DNA from: Bacteroidota bacterium
Lineage (GTDB): Bacteria > Bacteroidota > Ignavibacteria > Palsa-1295
DNA: 64,000 nt
Reading direction: 5' to 3'
NCBI GenBank assembly: GCA_021324735.1
Contig: JAJPIO010000007.1
Location: forward strand, 124,001-188,000
Of the stretch, positions 19,584 through 20,802 are shown one piece after another; position 1 is the stretch's first letter, and every line of letters starts with the position of its first letter. A program made the translations under genes and the position numbers. Under the pieces are notes generated by a model. It did no database searches, had not been told where the DNA came from, and saw nothing but the letters and a program-made list of their open reading frames with translations.

Positions 19584-19711
19584 TAGTTGATAGCGTAGAA
19601 CGGAGAGTGTTCGTTACTCCCGCTTTCATTGATCTTTATCTTACTTCGATTTTGTTTTTTACGTTGTAATTTAATGAACTCCGTCGTTTGAAGTTCTGCC
19701 TATTTCCAGTC

Positions 19712-20413
19712 CTATTCTAATTGCATCTCCTCATACGGATCGTATACCCGCCAAACGGCTGTAGCATAGGCGCTCAAAATTCCGATTGCCCCGCGAGCGA
19801 AAGATAATTCTCGAATATCGTTTCGCATCTCTTGCGAGTAGATGACCACGGTGAGTCCGTGCCGCACTTGTAATTCCAGAAAAGCTTTGGCCAACATGGA
19901 CTTTGTGTAACGTGAAAGCGTGGCGAACTCGAACGAGTTGAGTACGATAATCTCGTATTCCTTTTCCTTGATCTCCGATTCCAACAGTGTGCTGGTGAGC
20001 GTTGAGGTAGGGCAATTCAACACACGAAGATTCGTTGGAAGCGACGCTGATTCATCTAAGGACTCCTCACTTGATCTCAGATATTTTTTCAAGCGATGCG
20101 GCACCTTCATCCTGGCCTGGACCATTCCATGGACCAATGACGATTGAAGCAGTTCGGCACTTGCATACGTATTGATGAGGAGTAATTTCTTCGCCGGAAA
20201 TTTATTGGCAAGATGGATGGACATGGCACTTGCATTCTCTACGGCGTGGACAATGTCGCGGTCCAGAATGATGGTGAAGCCATCGCTTTTCGCTTCGATC
20301 CTGCCGCACCAGCCCGACCACCCGCAAAGATGTTCTCGTGGGGGTGCTTCGGGAAGTGTAAAAACTTCGTCGAGAGGCAGCGATTTAATAGCTGCGAGAT
20401 TGACAGATTTCAT
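19712..20413 (-). CDS. RecA-fold protein lacking a Walker A motif
   Basis: I do not recognise a named family. The 233 residues from the ATG at 20413 resemble the RecA/KaiC/DnaB core: a strand G-F-T-I-I-L-D followed by a helix with A-M-S-I-H-L-A-N, then K-L-L-L-I-N-T-Y-A-S, later E-I-I-V-L-N-S-F-E-F (Walker B position) and L-T-V-V-I-Y-S-Q-E. Where a P-loop G-x-x-x-x-G-K-T should be, the sequence is D-R-D-I-V-H-A-V-E-N, with no glycine or lysine, and the Walker B acid is replaced by Asn/Ser. ATP hydrolysis is therefore unlikely. An upstream TTG (20440) is possible but less likely. A 16-bp palindrome (20533) lies between this gene and the XRE gene. Confidence 0.6.
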   Translation of the reverse strand: MKSVNLAAIKSLPLDEVFTLPEAPPREHLCGWSGWCGRIEAKSDGFTIILDRDIVHAVENASAMSIHLANKFPAKKLLLINTYASAELLQSSLVHGMVQARMKVPHRLKKYLRSSEESLDESASLPTNLRVLNCPTSTLTSTLLESEIKEKEYEIIVLNSFEFATLSRYTKSMLAKAFLELQVRHGLTVVIYSQEMRNDIRELSFARGAIGILSAYATAVWRVYDPYEEMQLE

Positions 20414-20532
20414 AACGGTTATCAATAGGTGCCCTACCAAGCACCGTTAATAACGACGCTATAAATCAAAAAAGTTCAAGCTGTTTTAAATATTTTTGAC
20501 AAATGGCTCAATTTGATGGATTGAGGTAATAA

Positions 20533-20565: not shown

Positions 20566-20802
20566 TCAAGATTTTCTTTTGCTCCAACGGTAGGCACGTG
20601 GGATGAGAAGCGCGAAAGGCTCAATTCCTAAGATAATAGCCAAGCGGTTTAAAGTGTCAACCGTAATATTCTTCTCTCCCCGCTCAATAGCGCCTAAATA
20701 ATTCAAATGCACTCTTGCCTTTTGGCAGAATTCTTCTCTTGAGTATCCTTGGAGTGTTCGAAACCCTTGAACATTCTGCCCTATAACTTCGCGAAGTTCC
20801 AT
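20566..20802 (-). CDS. XRE-family helix-turn-helix regulator
   Basis: A 78-residue protein that is essentially one HTH_3 domain. Residues 5-65 read I-G-Q-N-V-Q-G-F-R, then S-R-E-E-F-C-Q-K-A (helix 2), L-N-Y-L-G-A-I-E-R-G-E (recognition helix) and L-N-R-L-A-I-I-L-G-I. The short basic tail (R-A-Y-R-W-S-K-R-K-S) has no second domain. It is probably a DNA-binding autoregulator. Two similar 16-bp palindromes flank the gene, one in the intergenic region shared with the divergent operon at 20959 and one upstream of the RecA-like gene. Confidence 0.88.
   Translation of the reverse strand: MELREVIGQNVQGFRTLQGYSREEFCQKARVHLNYLGAIERGEKNITVDTLNRLAIILGIEPFALLIPRAYRWSKRKS

Follow-up and report, generated by a model that had tools for sequence, protein, structure and literature searches.

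Within the window analysed here, that is, the whole stretch of 64,000 nucleotides, an open reading frame called on the minus strand at 19712..20413 (ATG at 20413, stop codon ending at 19712) encodes a protein of 233 amino acids, just where the initial annotation, made from the letters alone, had placed a RecA-fold protein devoid of the Walker A motif. The gene is flanked by a gene for a LamG-type protein and, upstream on the same strand at 20566-20802, by a gene for an XRE/HTH_3 regulator of 78 amino acids (Pfam HTH_3, 3.5e-10). A predicted LexA (SOS) box GTGCTTGGTAGGGCACCTAT occupies positions 20425..20444 of the minus strand, with 11 nt between the box end and the ATG, and reads as a perfect GGTGC-N8-GCACC once the flanking base 20445 is counted, while after the stop codon a possible degenerate right end of a gene unit, GTTCATTAAATTACAACG, lies at 19662..19679 of the same strand (consensus GTTCATGAAGCACAAACG). 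The gene is one copy of an unnamed multi-copy family of RecA-fold proteins without an ATP site; in accordance with the original statement that no named family is known for it, searches of Pfam, PHROGs, NCBIfam and PADLOC gave no family that is matched consistently.

Predicted fold and loss of the ATP site

The AlphaFold2 model of the 233-aa protein, computed from an alignment of 25 family members, reached pLDDT 91.0 and pTM 0.86. Its comparison with the PDB by Foldseek returned 106 matches at E<=1e-3 (best 2.5e-5) with RAD51, DnaB, KaiC and RadA at the top, and VIA-align gave Z values of 14.6 to KaiC and 14.5 to DnaB. The RecA/KaiC/DnaB core, initially proposed together with a structural search as the way to check it, is upheld by this comparison, and the window protein is, as a high-confidence prediction, a core of this type. 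SulA, ImuA and MEDS are not among the structure matches listed, which is evidence in neither direction. For a long paralog AlphaFold reached no more than pLDDT 64, and this poor model was left out of the analysis.

All strings quoted in the initial annotation are present in the protein, within DRDIVHAVEN (residues 51-60), LLINTYAS (78-85) and VVIYSQE (189-195), and NSFEF (159-163) stands where the Walker B acid would be. DRDIVHAVEN occupies the P-loop position, and the loss of Walker A extends to the whole family, GxxxxGK[ST] being found in 0 of 29 family ORFs with the window copy counted (one contig-end fragment stops short of the region). The P-loop replacement comprises codons 51-58 (DRDIVHAV; 20240..20263, minus strand), for which the family consensus is [SN]RD[IV]RxN[VAT]; hhalign pairs this position with the P-loop of AAA_25, and R52 and D53 are each kept in 20 of 25 members. 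Codons 81-85 (NTYAS; 20159..20173, minus strand) form the end of strand 2, which is the catalytic Glu position of RecA-type ATPases, and here the family reads N-T-Y-A, with N81 in 24 and A84 in 23 of the 25 proteins. At the Walker B position, codons 159-163 (NSFEF; 19925..19939, minus strand) carry Asn instead of the acidic Asp, just as had been claimed, and a new Glu162 (N159 in 24/25, E162 in 25/25). The sensor strand ends with codons 193-197 (SQEMR; 19823..19837, minus strand), where S/T193 is invariant, H/Q194 is kept in 24/25 and E195 in 19/25, and codons 207-211 (RGAIG; 19781..19795, minus strand) make up a conserved R-G-x-x-G loop (R207 in 23/25, G208 and G211 in 25/25), the counterpart of RGSS in AAA_25/RepA according to hhalign. 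The former ATP pocket has thereby acquired a new conserved set (R52, D53, N81, N159, E162, S/T193 and R207-G208-x-x-G211), every residue of which is retained by the window copy. R52, D53, N81, N159, E162, S193 and R207 are the most conserved polar residues, and the model places all of them at the ends of core strands, that is, in the predicted former nucleotide pocket.

Homologues with a normal P-loop, an outcome which in the initial annotation would have reduced the gene to a decayed copy, did not turn up: the P-loop is absent family-wide and the new residues are conserved. Decay of a RecA-type ATPase copy might account for the disappearance of all ATP motifs, as well as for the C-terminal tail of long paralogs, which is missing from the window copy, but it is refuted by the absence of the P-loop from every family ORF reaching this position, by the new conserved set and by dN/dS values of 0.05-0.26, and we consider it next to impossible. 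The lowest values, 0.05-0.10, belong to recent, near-identical paralog pairs (0.06-0.10 for those of 94% identity), other close paralogs going up to 0.26; all of them come from pairs other than the window copy, whose sister is too distant for direct estimation. Such low dN/dS implies that family proteins are maintained by selection. The R-G loop is a DNA-binding motif of SF4 helicases, but since most family members are acidic, binding of nucleic acids through it is not favoured; the acidity is silent as to the identity of the partner.

Relationship to RepA-type ATPases

Profile comparison by hhalign aligned the family with AAA_25/RepA over 191 columns with a probability of 95.8 (P 7.4e-9; reversed control 0.004), and values of 2e-7 and 7e-6 were obtained after dropping the two nearest templates. 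The results for others were 0.002 for RadA, 0.05 for RecA, 0.13 for DnaB and, as E-value, 0.84 for MEDS. Of the AAA_25/RepA templates, seven originate from the same GTDB family and one from a different family within the phylum, and the nearest solved relative of these ATPases is RepA (PDB 1g8y). By profile, RepA/AAA_25 ATPases thus appear to be the closest relatives, "related" being surer than "closest" because the AAA_25 templates were more diverse than the other sets. The Pfam model PF13481 (AAA_25) does not match the window protein at E<=10 and matches 0 of 25 members, and searching the PDB sequences by profile gave nothing significant. The likeness to RepA/AAA_25 includes the RecA-type core and a full-length alignment covering the N-terminal L-x-x-L-F, the P-loop position and the RG loop. 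RepA/AAA_25 proteins are, however, hexameric replication ATPases, whereas in the family neither Walker A nor the acid of Walker B nor the catalytic Glu survives, helicase context is absent, and the arginine-finger position of RepA is not kept, so that a family protein cannot simply complement an active ring as its trans-activating subunit. Plasmid, phage and viral contigs contained no family member according to tblastn and pattern scans, and on these grounds a phage, plasmid or viral origin was rejected.

Distribution and genomic setting

Twelve of the 13 genomes of one GTDB family (Kapabacteria/Ignavibacteria-like MAGs) contain homologues, with at most nine matches per genome, and in the class-wide search 12 of 294 genomes were positive, all inside this very family. 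A draw from the phylum added weak matches only, which upon inspection proved to be ABC ATPases, a histidine kinase and one ATPase of the AAA_25 type. The window's genome harbours four copies; one congener, 98% complete, has none, which implies that the function is dispensable. Family copies are solitary genes at unrelated loci, and all-against-all BLAST of about 29 neighbourhoods disclosed no conserved partner gene, the sharing being by chance or of housekeeping genes only. The XRE regulator, which had been put forward as a functional companion, does not hold this position: it adjoins the window copy only, no other copy having an XRE neighbour, and an operon with the XRE gene was rejected as an arrangement not conserved at other copies. 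The family tree interleaves species, and the sister of the window copy, found in another congener, precedes typA.

Predicted LexA control

LexA is matched by TIGR00498 in 13 of 13 genomes (11 above cut-off), and each of the 11 full-length lexA promoters contains one site with the consensus RTGCTTTNATGRGCACCTRY a few nt downstream of the -10 element. Sites of this type read RTGC-N8-GCACCT, with half-sites RTGC and GCAC spaced by 8 bp. The 12-mer ATRGGCACCTAT, common to the upstream regions of paralogs and preceding recA in several genomes, is non-specific in the window's genome, where a separate 30-bp repeat accounts for 14 of its 19 exact sites; for this reason a 20-bp matrix was built from the 11 lexA sites alone and scanned over 250 bp upstream of genes. 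With a threshold score of >=8 it marked 19 of 25 family upstream regions versus 1 of 294 other genes from the same loci (Fisher 2e-24), the window gene scoring 17.5 and the best of the 294 other genes 14.0, while column-shuffled matrices left 0-2 copies above the 99th percentile as compared to 17 for the real one. After removal of close paralogs and with 300-bp regions, 16 of 21 family members scored versus 5 of 295 others. In approximately 6 of 25 copies the LexA box is weak or missing, and one of the four copies in the window's genome is borderline (8.1 within 300 bp, none within 250 bp). The strict palindrome occurs at six sites in the whole 3.55-Mb genome, including lexA, the window gene and a second paralog. 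An RNA leader element in place of an operator was also considered and rejected, as the window leader folds no better than shuffled sequences (z -1.3). Since the matrix trained on lexA discriminates family members from other genes to this extent, the family is a predicted member of the SOS regulon; its control by LexA is strongly predicted, and its copies would probably be induced upon DNA damage.

The window's genome contains 14 or more occurrences of the 30-bp motif, AAC-N3-ATAGGCACCTAT-N6-GTTCC, several of them before genes for secreted or repeat proteins; the motif contains the 12-mer core of the SOS box and is otherwise unlike that box.

Genes recA, dinB, ssb, recG, vsr and uvrB (uvrB being named by eye) also stand behind 12-mer or palindrome boxes, dinB in two species. 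The first four of the core functions, recA, dinB, ssb and recG, are contained in the SOS network of Bacteroidetes (PMC8565304), and the genes behind the boxes make a recognisable SOS set. With the canonical E. coli regulon (CTGT-N8-ACAG) it shares the 4-N8-4 spacing and the core of lexA, recA, dinB, ssb, recG and uvrB, whereas the half-site in this clade is RTGC/GCAC; for Bacteroidetes proper, a CTAA-N5-TTAG box and a non-canonical LexA are described (PMC8565304). A DNA methyltransferase, a Vsr endonuclease and a TcmP-like gene are located directly behind a box in a related genome or in that of the window, suggesting that restriction-modification genes may enter the SOS regulon of the clade. 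In the window's genome, a LexA-type box is also found 349 nt before sdhA at a place devoid of a pseudo-RecA gene; in a congener, such a gene lies immediately ahead of sdhA.

Gene units and ORF-less elements

Two near-identical copies have in common the promoter, the gene and about 110 bp, and nothing further. The sequence GTTCATGAAGCACAAACG, to which the right end in the window corresponds, by eye, at 12 of 18 positions and therefore weakly, recurs at 16-18 of 18 positions in ORF-less elements of related genomes. These elements, 100-190 bp in length, have a LexA-box promoter at the left and GTTCATGAAGCACAAACG at the right, precede housekeeping genes, for instance that of enolase, and have the appearance of pseudo-RecA units shortened by deletion. 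In long paralogs, a GTTCATGAAGCACAAACG-type sequence encodes the VHEAQ tail (by eye), and their variable loop comprises intergenic-type repeats (e.g. HPLTPSPCWERG, RVVSGDPAG) apparently translated in frame, on which basis the loop seems to tolerate large insertions. Upstream of typA, two species have a full gene (of two different subfamilies), two others have short elements and three have neither, which makes this region a possible insertion hot spot. Around family units no transposase, inverted terminal repeats or target duplications were found; the arrangement suggests that the family may have dispersed as single-gene units.

Discussion

With a probability of about 0.6, the gene product is a RecA-fold protein which has lost ATP binding and is produced once LexA has been cleaved after DNA damage. 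This reading is based on the predicted fold, the family-wide loss of ATP motifs, purifying selection and the statistical association with LexA boxes. LexA seated on the box just 5′ of the start codon would repress the window gene, and RecA activated on damaged DNA would bring about the release of LexA and accumulation of the family protein; from the above we infer binding by LexA and induction, an inability of the protein to bind ATP in vitro, and its association with a protein target, the identity of which can be proposed as follows. Having no ATP site and hence no means of cycling, the protein would most likely act by stoichiometric binding of a partner. In RecA-type rings and filaments, the ATP face sits at the subunit interface, and the binding face of the family protein may well be this face in its rebuilt form (R52/D53, N81, N159/E162 and R207-G208-x-x-G211), enabling it to dock onto, cap or hold the partner during the damage response. 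The candidates are a RecA-type ATPase (RecA, RadA, DnaB or AAA_25), a Y-family polymerase, as proposed for ImuA, and the division machinery, as for SulA. A RecA-type ATPase may be named only tentatively, and a partner outside these groups with the same reserve; the translesion complex of DinB and RecA appears rather unlikely, and so does FtsZ or another component of division. A possible inhibitory role against a RecA-type ATPase, offered as an example in the initial annotation, gains in plausibility from the predicted control of the family by LexA along with recA, which recalls SulA and ImuA, both listed for comparison in that annotation.

SulA has a RecA-like fold without a P-loop, and a division inhibitor of this kind, SOS-controlled, binding FtsZ and delaying division until DNA is repaired, would share with the family a P-loop-less RecA-like fold, LexA control (predicted for the family) and the small size of a stoichiometric SOS protein; SulA (PF03846) itself was not found at the family cut-off in 13 of 13 genomes of the GTDB family. 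However, the family resembles E. coli SulA neither in sequence nor by profile (hhalign E 0.6 over 11 columns, a single-sequence template being weak evidence; no Pfam match for the window protein and 25 members), which led us to reject identity with SulA, and several diverged copies per genome, longer variants and long variable tails are unlike SulA, of which FtsZ binding is a characteristic feature, so that a SulA-like function is improbable. Conversion of the ATP pocket to ligand sensing or enzymatic use, in the manner of the P-loop-less KaiC-like MEDS sensors (PF14417), agrees with the location of the most conserved polar residues, but membership in MEDS was rejected (hhalign E 0.84, no Pfam match), no output domain (kinase, HTH) is fused to the protein, and such a conversion looks still more doubtful. 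Pseudo-ATPases are also known among Rad51 paralogues: yeast Csm2-Psy3 have the RecA fold, reportedly do not bind ATP and modulate the Rad51 filament; these proteins are eukaryotic and heterodimeric. In a role closer to replication past lesions, the family protein would serve in translesion synthesis as structural partner to RecA or to DinB, the LexA-controlled polymerase. The model for this role is ImuA, a RecA homologue without Walker A and B, which may have a structural role with a polymerase (PMC6511836) and occurs in SOS regulons (PMC6511836; PMC8565304). These genomes contain no ImuA above cut-off, recA and radA being the genes that score below it with NF033429, and dinB is boxed in two species; on the other hand, no family member is matched by this NCBIfam model, for which reason identity with ImuA was rejected, the copies lie outside an imuAB-dnaE2 operon and number several per genome, and an imuB/dnaE2 neighbour was recognised at none of them (neighbourhoods read by eye). 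We therefore hold an ImuA-like part to be unlikely as well.

The box might also serve an element rather than the host, if the family were a selfish SOS-activated single-gene mobile unit whose ancestor was an ATPase of the RepA type from a plasmid or phage. The best profile match to AAA_25/RepA (P 7e-9), solitary copies at unrelated loci, the similarity of near-identical copies only over promoter, gene and about 110 bp, ORF-less elements with the same box and right end GTTCATGAAGCACAAACG before housekeeping genes, and the typA upstream region differing between species (gene, short element or neither) are all consistent with such a unit. It is at odds with the lack of a detectable transposase, inverted terminal repeats or target duplications, with the absence of the family from plasmids, phages and viral contigs, with strong purifying selection and with the box being borne by lexA and recA themselves, and the chances of this explanation seem small. 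Smaller still are those of its extension to a self-spreading transposase-free unit made of a LexA box and a RecA-fold decoy, the ORF-less derivatives of which would put typA, enolase, sucC and others under a damage-controlled promoter and lead to order-wide rewiring of the SOS response. The preferred reading remains that of a LexA-controlled RecA-fold protein acting by binding a partner.

The initial observation is borne out and goes further than first put, since the P-loop-less RecA-fold proteins form a conserved family that is predicted to be part of the SOS regulon. SOS-controlled pseudo-RecA proteins are already known as a kind, and what is unusual in this family is the copy number and the pattern of spread. 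SulA and ImuA demonstrate that a RecA-type fold deprived of ATP binding can come to serve as an SOS effector; to these the family would add another independent case, with kinship to RepA-type ATPases and not to SulA or ImuA. It belongs to a lineage whose SOS system appears to be undescribed, and comes as several diverged copies per cell. For Kapabacteria-like bacteria, this provides a ready definition of the LexA box (RTGC-N8-GCAC) together with a short list of testable DNA-damage genes.
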